Origin: an uncultured Curvibacter sp.
Lineage (GTDB): Bacteria; Pseudomonadota; Gammaproteobacteria; Burkholderiales; Burkholderiaceae_C
Reading direction: 5' to 3'
DNA: 64,000 nt
NCBI GenBank assembly: GCA_903828535.1
Contig: CAIKMN010000027.1
Coordinates: 21,450-85,449, forward strand
Positions 1 to 64,000 of this stretch are shown one piece after another. Below the pieces are notes generated by a model, which was not told the DNA's origin, did no database searches, and saw only the letters and a list, made by a program, of their open reading frames with translations. Every line of letters begins with the position of its first letter. The first letter of the stretch is position 1. The position numbers and the translations under genes are program-made.

Positions 1-535
1 GAGCGGCCTCTTGTAATTCGGCAGGCACGGTTTTCAGCGATTGATAAAGGCTAAAGGCCATGTTCCAAGCTTGCGACGTAAAAATCGCAAAGATCGCGGC
101 GCACTCCACGCCCAGCAAGCTGCCCGGAAACAGGGCAATAAAGCCGGTCACAGTGATCGACAGAAAGCCCAAAATCGGAATCGACTGCAAGATGTCTAAA
201 AACGGAATCAGCACTTTTTCCATGGCCCGGTAGCGCGTGGCCAATACGGCGAATACCACGCTGAATACCAAGGAAGCCGCCAATGCCATGAACATGCGCA
301 TCGTGGTGCGAAGCAAGTAATAGGGGAGATAACTTAAATCACGCGACAGCGGAATTTCGTGACCCAACTCGTAAGGCGTGGCCATTTGCCGGGCGCCGTA
401 GGCCAACAAAACCAGCAGCGCAAAGACAATGGGCAGCAACGCCCAGTCCCAGCGATTGCCGCTGGCATCAACGACTTGTCGGGGAAAAAAATTCAGGGGG
501 GAGGGCCGTGTAGACCCGTCTTTGCGCTCATCCAT
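1..535 (-). CDS. ABC transporter permease (nitrate/sulfonate/taurine-type inner-membrane component), truncated at left window edge
   Basis: Reverse-strand reading from ATG at 535: MDERKDGSTRPSPLNFFPRQVVDASGNRWDWALLPIVFALLVLLAYGARQMATPYELG...; hydrophobic segments and a permease-like 'IPFLDILQSIPILGFLSITVTGFIALFPG' stretch; open to the window edge. Confidence 0.75.
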   Translation of the reverse strand, partial: MDERKDGSTRPSPLNFFPRQVVDASGNRWDWALLPIVFALLVLLAYGARQMATPYELGHEIPLSRDLSYLPYYLLRTTMRMFMALAASLVFSVVFAVLATRYRAMEKVLIPFLDILQSIPILGFLSITVTGFIALFPGSLLGVECAAIFAIFTSQAWNMAFSLYQSLKTVPAELQEAA

Positions 536-548
536 GGATGACTTTGAT

Positions 549-554
549 TATAAT
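549..554 (+). promoter_or_regulatory. Putative -10 box (TATAAT) for the ahcY transcript
   Basis: Exact TATAAT about 7-10 nt before the start of the riboswitch fold. Confidence 0.5.
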
Positions 555-560
555 ATCGGG

Positions 561-632
561 CATCCGAGGAGCGTTGCAGCGCAAACCATTTGCGTGAGGC
601 TCGGACACCTTCAAGCAACGACGCTCATCCAC
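561..632 (+). ncRNA. SAH (S-adenosylhomocysteine) riboswitch
   Basis: CATCCGAGGAGCGTTGCAGCGCAAA...GAGGCTCGGACACC...CAACGACGCTCATCC matches the SAH aptamer pattern (CCGAGGAGCGyTGC ... AGGCTCGG ... CGCTCA) directly upstream of ahcY. Confidence 0.93.
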
Positions 633-707
633 TTTCGGTGCGATGGGCTTTTCCAAAAGCATTTCTGCGCCCAAAGTGGTTTGTTCTAAACACATTGGGA
701 GTGAACC

Positions 708-2135
708 ATGAATGCACGCAATCCGTTGAACATCGACTCTGCCATCGCCGATATTGGCTTGGCTGTCTGGGGGCGTAAAGAAATCAAAATCGCCGAGACC
801 GAAATGCCCGGTCTGATGGCCATCCGCGAAGAATTCGCCGCGCAGCAACCGCTCAAAGGCGCGCGCATCACCGGCTCTTTGCACATGACCATCCAAACAG
901 CGGTGCTCATTGAAACCTTGCAAGCTTTGGGCGCCAAAGTACGTTGGGCTTCTTGCAACATCTTTTCCACACAAGACCACGCCGCCGCCGCCATTGCCGC
1001 AGCAGGCACGCCGGTGTTTGCGGTGAAGGGCGAAACCCTGGCCGACTATTGGGATTACACCCACCGTATTTTTGAATTCGGCGCGGCCGGTGCTGAGGGC
1101 GAAGGCCCCAACATGATCTTGGACGACGGCGGCGACGCCACCCTGTTGATGCACCTGGGCAAGCGCGCTGAAACCGACGCTTCCTTGCTTGAAAACCCCA
1201 CCAGCGAAGAAGAAACTTGCCTTTACGCTTCCATCAAAGCCAAGTTGGCCGTCGACCCCACTTGGTACAGCCGCAAGGGCGCGCACATCATTGGCGTGAC
1301 CGAAGAAACCACCACCGGTGTGCTGCGTTTGAACGAGATGGCCGCGAAGGGCAGCTTGATGTTCCGCGCCATTAACGTGAACGACTCGGTGACCAAGAGC
1401 AAGTTTGACAACCTCTATGGTTGCCGCGAGTCGTTGGTGGACTCCATCAAGCGCGCGACCGACGTCATGATCGCTGGCAAAGTGGCTTGCGTGGCGGGTT
1501 ATGGCGACGTGGGCAAAGGCTCGGCCCAAGCCTTGCGCGCTTTGAGCGCCCAAGTGTGGGTGACCGAGATCGACCCCATCAACGCCTTACAAGCCGCCAT
1601 GGAAGGCTACAAAGTGGTAACCATGGAATATGCGGCCGACAAGTGCGACATTTTTGTTTCGGCAACCGGCAACAAACACGTCATCCGTTATGAACACATG
1701 GCCGCCATGAAAGACGAAGCCATCGTGTGCAACATCGGTCACTTCGACAACGAAATCGATGTGGCCTCGTTGGAAAAACTGCAGTGGGATGAAATCAAGC
1801 CCCAAGTTGACCACGTCGTTTTCCCCGATGGCAAAAAGATCACCTTGTTGGCCAAAGGCCGTTTGGTCAATTTGGGTTGTGCCACCGGGCACCCCAGCTT
1901 CGTCATGTCGTCGAGCTTTGCCAACCAAACCATTGCCCAGATCGAGCTGTTCACCAAGCAAGACCAGTACGAATCCGGCAAGGTTTATGTGTTGCCCAAG
2001 CACTTGGACGAAAAAGTGGCGCGTTTGCACCTGAAGAAAGTCGGTGCCATGTTGACCGAACTGACCGACGAACAAGCCGCTTACATTGGCGTTTCCAAGC
2101 AAGGTCCTTACAAGGCCAACAGCTACCGTTATTAA
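708..2135 (+). CDS. ahcY: Adenosylhomocysteinase
   Basis: 475 aa; [36 protein letters not shown]..., [17 protein letters not shown]-binding motif, C-terminal YKANSYRY. Confidence 0.98.
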
Positions 2136-2144
2136 GCCGTCAAG

Positions 2145-2987
2145 TTGCGCGCCGATCAACTCTTGGTAGAACGCGGTTTAGCCGCCTCCCGCTCGATGGC
2201 GGTGCGGCTGATTGCGTCGGGTGTTCGTTGGCGCGCCGACCCTTCAGTGGCGGAATGGCGCTCGGTCACCAAGAGCGGTCAAGACCTGCCCGAGGGGGCG
2301 GATCTGGATTTGCAAAACAATGCCGAGGCGCGCTATGTGTCGCGGGGTGGCTTGAAGTTGGAAGCCGCCCTGAAACTCAGTGGCGTCCAAGTGCAAGGTG
2401 AGCGTTGTTTGGATGTGGGCCAGTCCACCGGCGGCTTCACCGACTGCTTGTTGCAGCAAGGCGCAGCCTTGGTGGTTGGCATCGAAGTGGGGCGAGACCA
2501 GTTGCACCCCCGCTTGCGTGATGACAACCGTGTAGTGTGCTTGGAGCAAGTCAACGCGCGTGAATTGGACGCTGCCGCTTGGCAAGTGCTGATGCAAGAC
2601 CGCCAAGCGCAGGGTCTCCTCACCGTCGACGTGGACCCAGAACAAGACCAAGACAAAGGCCAAGACACCGGATTTGGCTTGCTGGTGGCCGACCTGTCCT
2701 TCATCTCGCAAACCTTGGTGCTGCCCGCGGTGAGCGAATTGCTGAAGCAGGGGGCTTCGGTGTTGACCTTGGTGAAACCGCAGTTTGAACTGCAGCCACC
2801 ACAAATTGGCAAAGGCGGATTGGTCAAAGACCCGGCCTTCTATGCCGTGGTCGAGGCCCGTCTGAGGGACATGGCGGCAGAGTTGAATTGGCAAATTCTC
2901 GGATGGTGGGACAGCCCCATCCTGGGCGGCGATGGCAACCGCGAATTTTTGATGCATGCGAAAGTAGGACATGAAAGTCAGCTTTGA
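2145..2987 (+). CDS. tlyA: TlyA family rRNA (cytidine-2'-O)-methyltransferase / hemolysin A
   Basis: S4-like N-terminus (RADQLLVERGLAASRSMAVRLI) plus YVSRGGLKLEAAL and DVGQSTGGFTDCLLQ methyltransferase motif. Confidence 0.9.
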   Translation: MRADQLLVERGLAASRSMAVRLIASGVRWRADPSVAEWRSVTKSGQDLPEGADLDLQNNAEARYVSRGGLKLEAALKLSGVQVQGERCLDVGQSTGGFTDCLLQQGAALVVGIEVGRDQLHPRLRDDNRVVCLEQVNARELDAAAWQVLMQDRQAQGLLTVDVDPEQDQDKGQDTGFGLLVADLSFISQTLVLPAVSELLKQGASVLTLVKPQFELQPPQIGKGGLVKDPAFYAVVEARLRDMAAELNWQILGWWDSPILGGDGNREFLMHAKVGHESQL

Positions 2988-3789
2988 GTTTTTTCCGCCC
3001 AAAACGCCAGAAGGCGTTGAAAAATTGCGCGTTGTGCGTCAATCGCTGTACGCCCATCAGCCCGAATTTTGCTCGGTGACCTATGGCGCCGGCGGCTCTA
3101 CCCAAGCGGGCACCTTCGCCACGGTGGCCTCCATCTTGTCAGAAGGGCAGCAAGCCGCTTCACACTTTTCTTGCATTGGTGCCACCCGCGCTTCGGTGCG
3201 TGAACAATTGGCCGAACTCAAAGCCATGGGCGTGAAGCGGTTGGTGGCCTTGCGGGGTGACTTGCCGAGCGGTTATGGCGCTGGTGGTGAGTTCCATTAC
3301 GCCAGTGATTTGGTGGCTTTTATCCGTGCTGAAACCGGCGATGACTTTCACATCGAAGTTGCGGCCTACCCGGAAATTCATCCACAAGCGCGCTCGCCCG
3401 AAGCCGATTTGCAAGCCTATGTGACCAAGGTCAAAGCCGGGGCCGACTCCGCCATCACCCAGTATTTTTTCAACAGCGACGCCTACTTTCGATTTGTAGA
3501 CGAAGCCTACAAATTAGGTGCTGATGTGCCGGTGGTGCCGGGCATCATGCCCATCACCAGCTCCACCCAACTGCTGCGCTTTTCAGACGCCTGCGGTGCT
3601 GAAGTGCCTCGCTGGATTCGCCTGCGCTTGCAGGCCTTCGGGGACGACACCGCGTCCATCAAAGCCTTTGGCTTAGAGGTGGTTGGTGACCTGTGCGAGC
3701 AGCTCAAAAACGGCGGCGCGCCCAGTTTGCATTTCTACACCATGAACCAAAGCGCCCCCACTTTGGCGCTGTTGGACGCCATCCGTTAA
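2971..3789 (+). CDS. metF: Methylenetetrahydrofolate reductase
   Basis: MKVSFEFFPPKTPEGVEKL...FCSVTYGAGGST...; starts inside the 3' end of tlyA. Confidence 0.96.
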   Translation: MKVSFEFFPPKTPEGVEKLRVVRQSLYAHQPEFCSVTYGAGGSTQAGTFATVASILSEGQQAASHFSCIGATRASVREQLAELKAMGVKRLVALRGDLPSGYGAGGEFHYASDLVAFIRAETGDDFHIEVAAYPEIHPQARSPEADLQAYVTKVKAGADSAITQYFFNSDAYFRFVDEAYKLGADVPVVPGIMPITSSTQLLRFSDACGAEVPRWIRLRLQAFGDDTASIKAFGLEVVGDLCEQLKNGGAPSLHFYTMNQSAPTLALLDAIR

Positions 3790-3946
3790 GGCCAGCTCAG
3801 CAGAGATGCCCAGCAGGGGCTAGCCGTTTGTCGCCATGTGCCCAGAGGTTGTAAAGAAATCCCTTCGTCAACTGAAGTTCTGAGCCCCAAGCGGCTTAGG
3901 ATGAAGCTCGCCTCCATTTCTCTCAGGCTGCAGAAAGCGATGCTTC

Positions 3947-4912
3947 ATGGATTTCAAGGATTACTACAAAACGCTGGGTCTTCAGCGCACCGCGACGGAA
4001 GAGGAGGTGCGCAAGGCCTACCGAAAGTTGGCGCGCAAGTTCCACCCTGACGTCAGCAAGGAGCCCGATGCGCAAGCGAAAATGCGCGAGCTCAACGAGG
4101 CCAACGATGTCTTGCGCGACAAAGAAAAACGCGCGGCCTACGACGACTTGGCCGATCAGGTGGCCAAAGGGCATCGCCCCGGTGCGTCCGGGCCCAGCTG
4201 GGATCAGGGCTTTGACTTTCGCCGGGGTGCGAATGCGGGCACTGCCCATCGCAGCCACGACGGTGATCCGGGCGATTACGGCGATTACAGTGATTTTTTC
4301 TCGGCTATTTTTGGTCAAGGCGACCCCCGAGGAGGCGAGCGCCGTGGCGGCGAAAGTCGCCCCTACCGAGCGCGCGGCGAAGATCAAACAGCAGCCATCG
4401 AAATTTCCATTGAGGACGCCATTCGTGGCGTTGAGCGGGAAATAGTGCTGCCTGCGCACAACAACCGAACCTTGAGCGTCAAAATTCCTGCTGGCGTTCA
4501 TCCAGGGCAACACATCCGTTTGGCGGGTCAAGGCCAGCCCGGATACGGCGGTGAGCGAGCGGGCGATTTGTTTTTGGAAGTCCATCTGAAGCCTCACCCG
4601 CTGTACCGAGTCGATGGCAAAAATTTATCCATGAACTTGCCGGTCACGCCGACAGAAGCGGCGCTGGGCGCCCAGGTCAAAGTCCCCACGCCCGATGGCG
4701 GTGAGGTGGAAGTCACCGTTCCACCGAACTCACGCGGCGGTATGAAATTGCGGCTCAAAGGACGCGGCTTGCAAGGCAAGACCCCTGGCGATTTGTATTT
4801 GCCCTTGGAAATCGCGCTGCCCCCAGCAACCACCGACGCCGCTCGCCAAGCCTACGAACAACTGGCGAAGGCCGCGCCGTTCGACCCAAGGCGCCAGGGG
4901 TTCAGTCGCTAG
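3947..4912 (+). CDS. cbpA: DnaJ C-terminal domain protein / CbpA-like co-chaperone
   Basis: J domain (DFKDYYKTLGL...HPD...) and DnaJ C-terminal domain without a zinc finger. Confidence 0.88.
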   Translation: MDFKDYYKTLGLQRTATEEEVRKAYRKLARKFHPDVSKEPDAQAKMRELNEANDVLRDKEKRAAYDDLADQVAKGHRPGASGPSWDQGFDFRRGANAGTAHRSHDGDPGDYGDYSDFFSAIFGQGDPRGGERRGGESRPYRARGEDQTAAIEISIEDAIRGVEREIVLPAHNNRTLSVKIPAGVHPGQHIRLAGQGQPGYGGERAGDLFLEVHLKPHPLYRVDGKNLSMNLPVTPTEAALGAQVKVPTPDGGEVEVTVPPNSRGGMKLRLKGRGLQGKTPGDLYLPLEIALPPATTDAARQAYEQLAKAAPFDPRRQGFSR

Positions 4913-5170
4913 GGTGATCGCAGAAGGCCCTCCAAGGGGTACAATACGCAAGTTGCAGTCATTTGCTTACCTTCGCTGCAACGAGTCTTACCTCCACCCC
5001 GCTCCCTGCTCTTCAGAGCCGAGCGCCTCGGTGGTCACACTTTTCCTTTCGGCAAGCCTCACACGCAAACGCATGCGCAATTGCACACGCAATCGCCGCG
5101 CATATGCAAACGCAACGCCCATGCGAGTCGTTGCGACTGGCTTGACGCCTGTTACTCACAAGGAGGCCAG

Positions 5171-5437
5171 ATGGCCAAGGAAGAACTCATTGAAATGCAA
5201 GGCAAGGTCGACGAAGTGCTGCCCGACATGCTCTACCGCATCACGCTCGACAACGGCCACAAGTTAGTGGCTTACACCGGCGGCAAGATGCGCAAACACA
5301 AGATTCGCATTCTGGCTGGCGACAAGGTCACTTTGGAAATGTCGCCTTACGATTTATCCAAGGGCCGCGTGACTTTCCGTCACATCGAAAACCGCACACC
5401 CAGCGCGGGCAAGCCCGCCTTCAAACGCAAACGCTGA
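5171..5437 (+). CDS. infA: Translation initiation factor IF-1
   Basis: [70 protein letters not shown]; strong RBS AGGAGG just upstream. Confidence 0.95.
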
Positions 5438-5471
5438 TTTTTCAGCGCCTCGCCCTTTTTTGTTTTAACCA

Positions 5472-5500
5472 GCGCCCAATTTTCGGTGGGCGCATTTTCT
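5472..5500 (+). terminator. Hairpin plus T-rich tail between infA and the RRM gene (terminator/attenuator-like)
   Basis: GCGCCCA-ATTTTCGG-TGGGCGC followed by ATTTTCT. Confidence 0.5.
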
Positions 5501-5512
5501 GAAAGGCTCACC

Positions 5513-5851
5513 ATGAGCAGCAAACTTTACGTCGGCAATCTCTCCTATTCGGTTCGGGACGAAGACCTTCAACAACAATTTTCTGACTTCGGCAACGTTC
5601 AATCGGCCAAGGTCATGATGGAACGCGACACCGGCCGCTCCAAGGGCTTTGGTTTTGTCGAAATGTCCAGCCCCGCTGAAGCGCAAGCCGCCATCGACGG
5701 CCTGCACGGTAAAAACATGGGTGGCCGTGACCTGACCGTCAACATCGCTCGCCCCATGGAAGCCCGACCCCCCCGCAGCGGCGGCGGCTTTGGTGGTGGC
5801 GGCTACGGCGGTGGTGGTGGTGGTTACGGCGGTGGCAACCGCAACTATTGA
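5513..5851 (+). CDS. RRM-domain glycine-rich RNA-binding protein
   Basis: MSSKLYVGNLSYSVRDEDL...DTGRSKGFGFVEM RNP motifs; Gly/Tyr-rich C-terminus GGGFGGGGYGGGGGGYGGGNRNY. Confidence 0.93.
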   Translation: MSSKLYVGNLSYSVRDEDLQQQFSDFGNVQSAKVMMERDTGRSKGFGFVEMSSPAEAQAAIDGLHGKNMGGRDLTVNIARPMEARPPRSGGGFGGGGYGGGGGGYGGGNRNY

Positions 5852-5865
5852 TTTGGCCTTTCGCG

Positions 5866-6429
5866 TCAGCGCGCGTCGAACACAAAACAAGTCGACGTGG
5901 CGTGGGCGTAAAGCTTGTCTGCTGAGTCCACCAATTTGGCCTCGGAAGTGGCCACTTGTCGGCCCATGTGCACCACCGTTCCAATGGCCCGCAGCGGGCC
6001 AGTTTGGGCGTTGGCGGCGCGCACGATGTTCATGTTAATTTGTGACGTCGTGTAGGCCTTGCCTGGCGGTAACTTGGTGTGAATGCTGCAGCCCAAGGCC
6101 GAGTCAAGCAAAGTGGCATACCAACCCCCGTGCACCGTGCCCAAGGGGTTGAAGTGCTTGAGGTCGGGGGTCCCTTGGAAAACAGCCAATCCATCGCCCA
6201 CTTCGACCAAGTAAAAGTCCAGCGCTTCTGAAATTCCCGGTGGCCGCAAATGCCCTTCGAGCAGCAACGTCATGACTTCCAAGCCGGTTTTTCCTGCCGA
6301 TTGTCTTGCCTTTTCAGCCGGACTGTACGCCGCTGTTTGGGCCGCTAGATTGGCTTCTTGGCGTTGCAGAACAGCGTCCAATTGCTGCATCCATTTTTGC
6401 AAAGTTGGCAAGGTGTCTGGTGTGCTCAT
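5866..6429 (-). CDS. PaaI family thioesterase (hotdog fold)
   Basis: FNPLGTVHGGWYATLLDSALGCSIHTKLPPGKAYTTSQINMNIVR. Confidence 0.85.
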   Translation of the reverse strand: MSTPDTLPTLQKWMQQLDAVLQRQEANLAAQTAAYSPAEKARQSAGKTGLEVMTLLLEGHLRPPGISEALDFYLVEVGDGLAVFQGTPDLKHFNPLGTVHGGWYATLLDSALGCSIHTKLPPGKAYTTSQINMNIVRAANAQTGPLRAIGTVVHMGRQVATSEAKLVDSADKLYAHATSTCFVFDAR

Positions 6430-6598
6430 CGGTTTTCCTGGGTTAATTTGAAGTGGCTGTTGTCGTGCGTTTGGGTGTTTTTTAGAGTCTTCGACTGCCT
6501 GGAAGACTGCTGCATCCTAATCAGCCCTGGGGTTTCTGTGTGTGATGTGGGTGTCTTCCCTGAGTGGCTTGTAGGGTCTATGTGGGTATCATGAATTC

Positions 6599-7714
6599 AT
6601 GCCAACATCCCCTTTAATCACCATGACCCACAATCCCCCATCTGCCTCTGACTTGGGGCCCGTCTGGATCATGGGCGCTGGCAGCGTCGGCTGTTACTTG
6701 GGGGGCTGGTTGGCCGCTGCAGGTGCGGACGTCAGCTTCATTGGGCGCCCTCGGGTGCTTGAAACGCTGCGGCGCGATGGCCTCACGGTCAGCGACATGA
6801 AAAACCACCAACACGCGATTCCTGCCAACGCTTTAAAGCTTTTTGAAGCCTTGCCTTCACTGGAATTGGCAGCGGCATCATCCACCCCACAAACCCCACA
6901 AACCCCCCCCGTCCAACCACCTGCTTTGGTGTTGCTCACCGTCAAAGGCTCGGGCACGGTTCAAGCAGCGAAAGAATTGGTCGCCGCCGGTTTACCGGCT
7001 GGCACCTTGGTGGTGTCTTTTCAAAACGGGGTGGGCAACGCAGAACTGGCCCAAGCCTGCGCTCCCTCGCTGAAGGTGCTCGCAGGCATGATTCCTTACA
7101 ACGTGGCCGATCTGGGTCACGGTGTTTTCCACCGCGGCACCACCGGCAGCTTGATGGTGCAAGACGACGCTCAGTTTGCGCCTTGGCAAGCGGTCTTCAA
7201 CAGCACCCAACTGCAACTGAAATTGGTCCCCGACCTCAAGCCGGTTCAATGGGGCAAGTTGCTCATCAACTTGAACAACCCAGTCAACGCGCTGTCGGGC
7301 TTGACCTTGTTACAAGAATTTTCCGATTGGTACTTTCGCCGCTGTTTGGCCGCGCTCATTGAGGAGGCCATGCAGGTCTTGCGGCAGGCCCAAGTGCCCT
7401 ACGCGCAGGTGCTGGCTGTTCCCCCTGAAAAATTCATTCGTGTTTTGCGTTTGCCTAATTTTCTATTCAAGTGGGTGGGGAAAAAAATGCTCCAAATCGA
7501 CCCCAAAGCCAGCTCGAGCATGGCCGATGACTTTGCCCTGGGGCGCACCACCGAAATTGAATCGCTGTGCGGCGAGGTCGTTCGATTGGCTCAGAACAAC
7601 GGCCTCCAAGCCCCACGCAACGCTGCCATGGTGCGCTTGGTTCAGGCCCATACCGCACAAGGGGCCGGGCCGGGCAAATGGTCAGGCAAAGCCCTTCTCA
7701 AGGCATTGAATTAA
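6599..7714 (+). CDS. panE: 2-dehydropantoate 2-reductase
   Basis: VWIMGAGSVGCYLGGWLAAAGADVSFIGR Rossmann motif; KLLINLNNPVNALSGLT. Confidence 0.87.
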   Translation: MPTSPLITMTHNPPSASDLGPVWIMGAGSVGCYLGGWLAAAGADVSFIGRPRVLETLRRDGLTVSDMKNHQHAIPANALKLFEALPSLELAAASSTPQTPQTPPVQPPALVLLTVKGSGTVQAAKELVAAGLPAGTLVVSFQNGVGNAELAQACAPSLKVLAGMIPYNVADLGHGVFHRGTTGSLMVQDDAQFAPWQAVFNSTQLQLKLVPDLKPVQWGKLLINLNNPVNALSGLTLLQEFSDWYFRRCLAALIEEAMQVLRQAQVPYAQVLAVPPEKFIRVLRLPNFLFKWVGKKMLQIDPKASSSMADDFALGRTTEIESLCGEVVRLAQNNGLQAPRNAAMVRLVQAHTAQGAGPGKWSGKALLKALN

Positions 7715-62702: not shown

Positions 62703-63719
62703 ATGCTCGATGACCGCTCAAAGTTGTTGATGAAGGCGTTGGTCGAACGCTATATCGCCGACGGACAGCCGGTGGGTTCCCGCACACTCTCCAAAGCCTC
62801 GGGGCTCGAGCTGTCTGCCGCCACCATCCGAAATGTGATGGCCGACTTGGAAGACTTGGGCCTGATTGCCAGCCCCCACACCTCCGCCGGCCGCATCCCC
62901 ACGGCCCGTGGCTACCGCTTGTTTGTAGACACCATGTTGACGGCGCAACGGGGCGACTTGAACGCCTCCTTGTCGGCCCCCATCATTGTGGCCGAGCAGC
63001 CCCAAAAAGTCATTGCCAACGCGGCCCAACTGCTTTCGAGTTTGTCTAACTTTGTGGGCATTGTCGTGGCGCCCAAGCGCAGCTCGGTCTTCAGGCACAT
63101 TGAATTTTTGCGCCTGTCCGACCGCCGCTTGTTGGTCATCATTGTCTCCCCCGAGGGCGATGTGCAGAACCGCGTCATCTTCACCGAAGCCGATTACACG
63201 CAAAGCCAATTGATCGAAGTGGCCAACTTCTTGAACGCCCATTACGCCGGTTTGGCGATGGAGCAGGTTCGTGAAAAGCTGAGAAACGAAGTCGATCACC
63301 TGCGCACTGAAATTGCCACCTTGATGCAAGCCGCCGTCAGCGTCAGCACCGAGGCCTTGACCAGCCCGCAAGACGAGGTGGTAATTTCCGGCGAGCGCAA
63401 CCTGTTGACGGTCAGCGACTTTTCCAGCGACATGGACCAACTGCGCCGGGCCTTCGATTTGTTCGAGCAAAAAACCCAACTCATGCGCCTGCTCGACAGC
63501 TCGTCCCAGGCCGAGGGTGTGCGCATTTTTATTGGCGGCGAAAGCCAAGTGGTGCCGTTCGAAGAACTCTCGGTCGTCAGCGCGCCCTATGAAATTGACG
63601 GCCAAATCGTCGGCACCCTGGGCGTCATCGGCCCCACCCGCATGGCCTACGACCGCATGATTCAGATTGTGGACATCACCTCCAAGCTCGTCAGCAACGC
63701 GCTGAGCCATCAGAAGTGA
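62703..63719 (+). CDS. hrcA: Heat-inducible transcription repressor HrcA
   Basis: [71 protein letters not shown]. Confidence 0.96.
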
Positions 63720-63765: not shown

Positions 63766-63804
63766 GGGGCGTTAGCTCAGTTGGTTAGAGCAGAGGATTC
63801 ATAA
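63766..63804 (+). pseudogene. 5' half of a tRNA-Met(CAT)-like gene without a recognisable 3' half immediately downstream
   Basis: GGGGCGTTAGCTCAGTTGGTTAGAGCAGAGGATTCATAA then non-tRNA-like ACAAGTTAAGAACTTAAGTTGT; no matching T-arm or acceptor. Confidence 0.65.
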
Positions 63805-63878
63805 ACAAGTTAAGAACTTAAGTTGTCTATAAATCCTCAATGAAATCAACAGGTTGCAGCGCCACAGTTGCCAAAATT

Positions 63879-63900
63879 TGCTTCCACACTGCTTCCACAC
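63879..63900. repeat. 11-bp tandem repeat TGCTTCCACAC x2 between the two tRNA 5' halves
   Basis: tgcttccacac tgcttccacac read directly. Confidence 0.9.
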
Positions 63901-63963
63901 TTTGCTGAAAATTTAAGCAGCGTTTTTGGGGTCAAAAAGGGGCAAAGTACAATCAGTTTTTCT

Positions 63964-64000
63964 GGCCTATAGCTCAGTTGGTTAGAGCAGAGGACTTAAA
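63964..64000 (+). tRNA. 5' portion of a second tRNA-like sequence, truncated by window end
   Basis: GGCCTATAGCTCAGTTGGTTAGAGCAGAGGACTTAAA; shares 25 nt exactly with 63773-63797. Confidence 0.5.

Follow-up and report, generated by a model that had tools for sequence, protein, structure and literature searches.

The window analysed here is a 64,000-nt stretch of the genome of an uncultured Curvibacter sp. (G000:C27:21450-85449; G000 is this genome), and its last base is the end of the contig. Close to this end, hrcA is followed by the 5' half of a CAU tRNA, the putative left end of an integrative element and the 5' exon of a second, replacement (rescue) CAU tRNA. The features are as follows.

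62703..63719, forward strand: hrcA, read from the sequence; the chromosomal neighbour of the target tRNA, with 72-96% nucleotide identity to relatives
63766..63804, forward strand: pseudogenic 5' portion of the native CAU tRNA, which ends in the anticodon loop; from the sequence and ARAGORN
63793..63838, no strand assigned: inverted repeat around the crossover, with 22-nt arms (63793-63814 and 63817-63838) that are 86% complementary
63798..63804, forward strand: attL crossover core, the 7-nt anticodon loop, TTCATAA here and CTCATAA in relatives; from attL/attR comparison in complete relatives
63805..63963, forward strand: left end of the integrative element, comprising the attL arm region and the rescue-tRNA promoter region; its final base overlaps the rescue tRNA, and its identity in L106, L119 and L120 is 94-97%
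63879..63900, forward strand: tandem TGCTTCCACAC x2 (copies at 63879-63889 and 63890-63900), with a matching pair within the right end of relatives
63948..63953, forward strand: TACAAT, a conserved -10-like box ahead of the rescue tRNA, proposed from sequence conservation
63963..63996, forward strand: 5' exon of the rescue CAU tRNA (acceptor strand, D-arm, 5' anticodon stem, C32 and U33), based on a 31-mer in 26 genome stretches and the exon-intron reading
63997..64000, forward strand: predicted start of a group I intron, TAAA (4 nt), by comparison with 22 distinct homologous introns

The native 5' half begins at 63766 downstream of hrcA, reaches CATAA at 63804 and breaks off there. The first-pass annotation had described such a tRNA-like half, ending at a CAT loop without a 3' half; the sequence of 63766-63804 is as quoted, and ARAGORN found no complete tRNA at the 63766 locus. 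The AT-rich near-palindrome and the tandem 11-mer it pointed out are likewise present, the former as part of the 22-nt inverted repeat (86%) and the latter as the TGCTTCCACAC pair, whose copies are probable arm-type integrase sites. At position 32 of the native half (window 63798), the loop reads TTCATAA in place of the CTCATAA of relatives, and CACATAA was seen in L120. Such core variants are as expected for a half freed from selection.

The 159 bp past the break are 94-97% identical in other genomes at the identical break point, and thus the arrangement is not a matter of chance. A sigma-70 scan of this left end detected no full consensus promoter. The second tRNA 5' exon, overlooked in the first-pass annotation, starts at 63963, 160 bp past the break. 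An identical stretch of 25 nt recurs in this exon and in the first half at a spacing of 197 bp, and the exon is interrupted at GGACT/TAAA by the contig end (window 64000, corresponding to G000:C27:85449).

The tRNA adjacent to hrcA was intact and intronless in 15 of the 19 loci fetched from relatives. The comparison with sister genomes downstream of hrcA, as the first-pass annotation had proposed, gave an uninterrupted CAU tRNA in G008, whose hrcA is 95.8% identical to that of G000, and in G003. A target tRNA split in one genome and intact in its close sisters is the pattern by which a tRNA-targeting element is recognised. The hrcA genes of L106, L119 and L120 are 74-76% identical to that of G000, yet their 159-bp left ends are 94-97% identical, and the closest sister (hrcA 96%) lacks this left end. 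As judged from sequence identity, this contrast is that of an element that has spread horizontally.

In G000, 36 tRNAs scored above the Rfam cut-off. Its complete CAU tRNAs are one initiator gene and one elongator-class gene of differing sequence; a complete copy of the split class was not found in the assembly. At G000:C8:2589 (L066, L164), an apparent tRNA-Asn 3' half (TGTTAATCCGTAGGTC...GAGGAGCCA) follows non-tRNA DNA with repeated TTACACG. No tRNA-Asn was found in G000, and thus a second tRNA may be split likewise. ARAGORN labelled all CAU tRNAs as Met. Identity to E. coli ileY was 59/77 and to metU 57/80, and comparison with metU, metT and ileY did not separate Met from Ile2; therefore, we use the neutral name CAU tRNA. 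Three observations lean towards tRNA-Ile(CAU), namely the T-loop GUUCAAGUC, the better match between ileY and the rescue tRNA of G394 (67/77) and the intron known in Azoarcus pre-tRNA-Ile (PMC3984707).

The intron, the tRNA 3' half, the right end and the remainder of the rescue tRNA were sought elsewhere in the G000 assembly, and none of them was found. A search for the chromosome beyond the gap, using the downstream sequence of G008, gave only two short, chance-like matches. The contig stops exactly within the second tRNA, several other assemblies also stop inside this tRNA, and many break in the intron, as might be seen if misjoined reads had created the second 5' half and the contig end. 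We give almost no credence to such an artefact, as the order of split half, ~160 bp and second 5' exon recurs in independent assemblies, including a 1.8 Mb isolate contig. The contig end in G000 is probably caused by near-identical intron-bearing tRNAs common to coexisting lineages.

When 84,980 species genomes were scanned for exact matches to the 31-mer TAGCTCAGTTGGTTAGAGCAGAGGACTTAAA, 26 stretches were returned, all labelled Burkholderiales or other betaproteobacteria; the carriers include Limnohabitans, Hylemonella, Rhodoferax, Polaromonas and Nitrosomonas. Where the contig extends past the exon, an intron of the form TAAA...G is followed by CATAATCCTTTGG and then by a complete tRNA 3' half. 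This intron lies between U33 and C34, the predicted spliced loop CUCAUAA is a normal anticodon loop, and the exon borders (5' exon ending in U, intron ending in G) are consistent with group I splicing. We extracted 22 distinct U33/C34 introns with a length of 244-257 nt, except for one of 307 nt. Among 62 predicted pairs, 20 were changed on both sides, and non-canonical cells amounted to 2.4%. The U33/C34 intron scored 28.6 bits against Rfam RF00028 (E 1.8e-5 in a short search), below the gathering threshold of 50. The G004-type intron, located after CAU, scored 66.8 bits against the Rfam group I model, and the U33/C34 core resembles the G004-type core. A predicted group I structure and core are thus present in the relatives, and only 4 nt of the intron lie in G000, where its remainder and the right end of the element presumably also exist. 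We infer that the rescue-tRNA intron is spliced wherever it occurs. The only complete copy found in the cultured strain Limnohabitans sp. MMS-10A-178 carries the intron. At L080 (G016), a decayed tRNA 5' half (AACTCAGTTGGTGAGAGGGCGCC) downstream of hrcA is followed by an intron-bearing tRNA, and the locus looks like an old insertion of which only the rescue gene survives.

The sequences of the relatives display the splitting of the tRNA, its replacement, an intron or recoding in the replacement, both element ends, mobility and, in some, integrases. In complete relatives, the CTCATAA crossover core coincides exactly with the anticodon loop. The native 3' half is displaced by 3.6-69 kb; its counterpart in G000 would be expected to read CATAATCC...ACGCCC. 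Precise boundaries at both ends were obtained for L106 (3.6 kb), G376 (10.3 kb), G394 (5.7 kb), G313 (10.1 kb) and G004 (26.2 kb). In the element of L106 (Hylemonella sp. UBA6679), a left end near-identical to that of the window comes after the native 5' half. The intron-bearing tRNA is next, then a transporter pair (DevC/ABC-like according to the translations) and, last, a right end that contains paired TGCTTCCACA repeats and runs into the native 3' half, 3,558 bp away. CTCATAA is all that attL and attR have in common in L106. L099 contains an attP-like joint, with the right end fused to the left end.

With an uninterrupted tRNA in sisters and both ends, a displaced 3' half and, in several, integrases in complete relatives, the proposal of the first-pass annotation that the locus is one end of an integrated element is supported. 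Its suggestions of an excision scar and of a single tRNA with an unusual insertion are excluded. A reconstituted tRNA at the far end had also been envisaged; in relatives, a whole rescue tRNA lies inside the element instead.

In Islander islands, an attP fragment rebuilds the tRNA (PMC4383910), and the half in the window would then be the displaced fragment of a canonical island. Anticodon-centred crossovers and 5' fragments are known in that system (PMC4383910), and tandem displaced 3' halves adjoin the element of MMS-10A-178. In that strain (L156/L157, contig 881.5-914.6 kb), a rescue-type element of ~14.7 kb is followed by segments of 6.1 and 12.3 kb. All three terminate in the same att-like right end plus a displaced 3' half of the tRNA; the 6.1- and 12.3-kb segments look like ordinary canonical-type islands. 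For the locus studied here, a canonical island is nonetheless improbable: neither half is rebuilt, complete relatives leave both native halves over, and their functional tRNA is encoded by a separate, full-length gene whose acceptor strands match. Two further loci have repeated parts. L216 (G084; positions 168-7100, reverse strand) contains one split 5' half and three displaced 3' halves at ~4.5, 5.5 and 7.1 kb, which suggests small tandem islands. L223 (G243, reverse strand) contains intron-bearing rescue tRNAs at 294 and 16549, ~16 kb apart, probably representing two elements in tandem.

The cargo of the MMS-10A-178 segments is metabolic and covers aromatic and acyl-CoA catabolism, amino-acid use and phosphonate use. 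In the closest elements (L106, MMS-10A-178, G062 and G376), cargo is present and no integrase was seen. Integrases are present in L103, G394, G313, G238 and G004. The 26.2-kb island of G004 is organised likewise. Between its native 5' and 3' halves lie, in this order, the rescue tRNA, whose group I intron is of the other type and sits after CAU, the genes of an AbiE toxin-antitoxin system and an integrase in which Arm-DNA-binding and Phage_integrase domains were recognised. One tyrosine recombinase family occurs downstream of the rescue tRNA in L103, G394, G313, G238 and G243, with 37-43% identity to the L103 protein. It has the R, RxxH and HY motifs, with Pfam matches in several members, and a search of solved structures gave no match. 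Elements with this integrase family show three solutions, namely the U33/C34 intron (L103), an intron after CAU (G313, G238 and G243) and an intronless recoded stem (G394). The tRNA 31-mer, a 25-mer from the intron core and the integrase of L103 were also searched for in viral contigs, where nothing was confirmed. Among plasmids and phages, the matches were limited to distant introns or integrases and to pieces of ordinary tRNA-Met.

We surveyed 401 family genomes with two exact split-5'-half patterns and followed 15 split loci. The replacement tRNA was traced for 13 of them; at the other two, no rescue tRNA was found within ~60 kb (G084) or before the contig end (G028). Eleven of the 13 rescue tRNAs carry an anticodon-loop group I intron (G376, G004, G177, G313, G238, G243, G223, G174, G321, G152 and G021), of several intron types and at two insertion sites. 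The rescue tRNA of G152 lies 58 kb into a ~69-kb island, and that of G021 lies on a second contig, which also has the matching native 3' half. The remaining two are intronless and have a recoded anticodon stem, GTCGA-CTCATAA-TCGAT in G394 and CCCGA-CTCATAA-TCGGG in G162, compared with the native GAGGA-CTCATAA-TCCTT. The intact target (attB) sequence is kept in none of the 13 rescue tRNAs. G376 combines the ends of the window's element with a different intron; this group has thus gained its intron on more than one occasion.

The intron could be a neutral passenger of an intron-rich tRNA in the same element, whose rescue tRNA would have been captured from a lineage with an intron already in its CAU tRNA. 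Group I introns are known in bacterial tRNA anticodon loops, including Azoarcus pre-tRNA-Ile (PMC3984707), and some genomes (G029) have an intron-bearing CAU tRNA without a visible split. Introns occur, however, in 11/13 rescue copies versus ~1/17 ordinary copies in relatives (Fisher p = 1.5e-5, uncorrected for relatedness), intron types that are unrelated appear repeatedly, as do two insertion sites, and the intronless exceptions have recoded stems. We consider a passenger possible but unlikely. Protection of the rescue tRNA against anticodon nucleases, and not against the integrase, is another explanation for the intron or recoded stem, and phage tRNAs are reported to escape tRNA-targeting defences by anticodon-loop changes (work cited in PMC11476347). 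It is very improbable, because the anticodon arm of spliced intron-bearing copies is the native one, leaving the mature tRNA unprotected.

We propose, with a probability of about 0.8, that window positions 63798-64000 are the attL of an element that brings an intron-interrupted, putatively integrase-shielded replacement CAU tRNA. A tyrosine integrase would recombine the attP of the element with the CTCATAA anticodon loop of the hrcA-linked CAU tRNA. The native 5' half would thereby be left nonfunctional next to hrcA, and the 3' half would be moved to the opposite end of the element. The complete CAU tRNA of the element, starting at 63963 with its own promoter region, would restore decoding and keep the cell alive, and splicing of the group I intron from between U33 and C34 would yield a normal anticodon loop. 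Self-recombination would be expected of an excised circle on which attP is accompanied by an intact attB, and an integrase-proof copy would avoid this. The intron within the 7-bp crossover, or the recoded stem at the expected place of integrase binding, breaks the attB sequence and may thus make the rescue gene invisible to the integrase. The shielded copy would prevent self-recombination of the circle, and the genome would be left without a free attB for competing elements. We lean, with modest confidence, towards a general form of this idea, in which elements that break an essential tRNA carry a replacement unrecognisable to their own integrase, usually through a self-splicing intron in the 7-bp crossover and sometimes through a recoded anticodon stem, blocking both self-recombination of the circle and attachment of competitors.

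These elements resemble the tyrosine-integrase islands of Islander (PMC4383910) in the anticodon-loop crossover, the displaced fragment at the end, the arm-type repeats, the integrase in several and the tandem neighbours. They differ in the loss of both native halves, whose role passes to a separate, complete tRNA with an intron or a recoded stem. Canonical islands rebuild attB and can accrete in tandem, whereas the elements described here would leave no free attB. The intron belongs to the same ribozyme class as bacterial tRNA group I introns such as that of Azoarcus pre-tRNA-Ile (PMC3984707), and one subset has a similar core in a CAU tRNA; unlike those introns, the intron-bearing tRNA here travels in integrative elements, and the U33/C34 type lies below the Rfam gathering threshold. 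According to the same review (PMC3984707), every phage group I intron of which its authors knew resides in a protein gene, although phages have many tRNA genes. For archaea, Randau and Soll suggested that tRNA introns disrupt attB (discussed in PMC4090602). In both cases an intron would destroy the integrase target inside a tRNA gene; the archaeal proposal concerns host defence by protein-spliced introns, whereas here a predicted self-splicing intron would be borne by the element in a replacement gene. Tycheposons and tRNA-associated cargo islands of Methylophilaceae (PMC10872708) likewise carry metabolic cargo at a Met-annotated tRNA in freshwater betaproteobacteria. We found no split or intron-bearing rescue tRNA in their published description as far as compared here.

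We found no description of intron-bearing rescue tRNAs in islands in the open-licence literature. If the proposal is true, bacterial tRNA group I introns would serve a definite selective function in mobile DNA, since an element with such an intron could carry the whole of its target gene. The proposal would also account for the apparent absence of a CAU tRNA in some genomes and for the assembly breaks at this place, and would point to a class of islands hidden from tools that seek a rebuilt tRNA.
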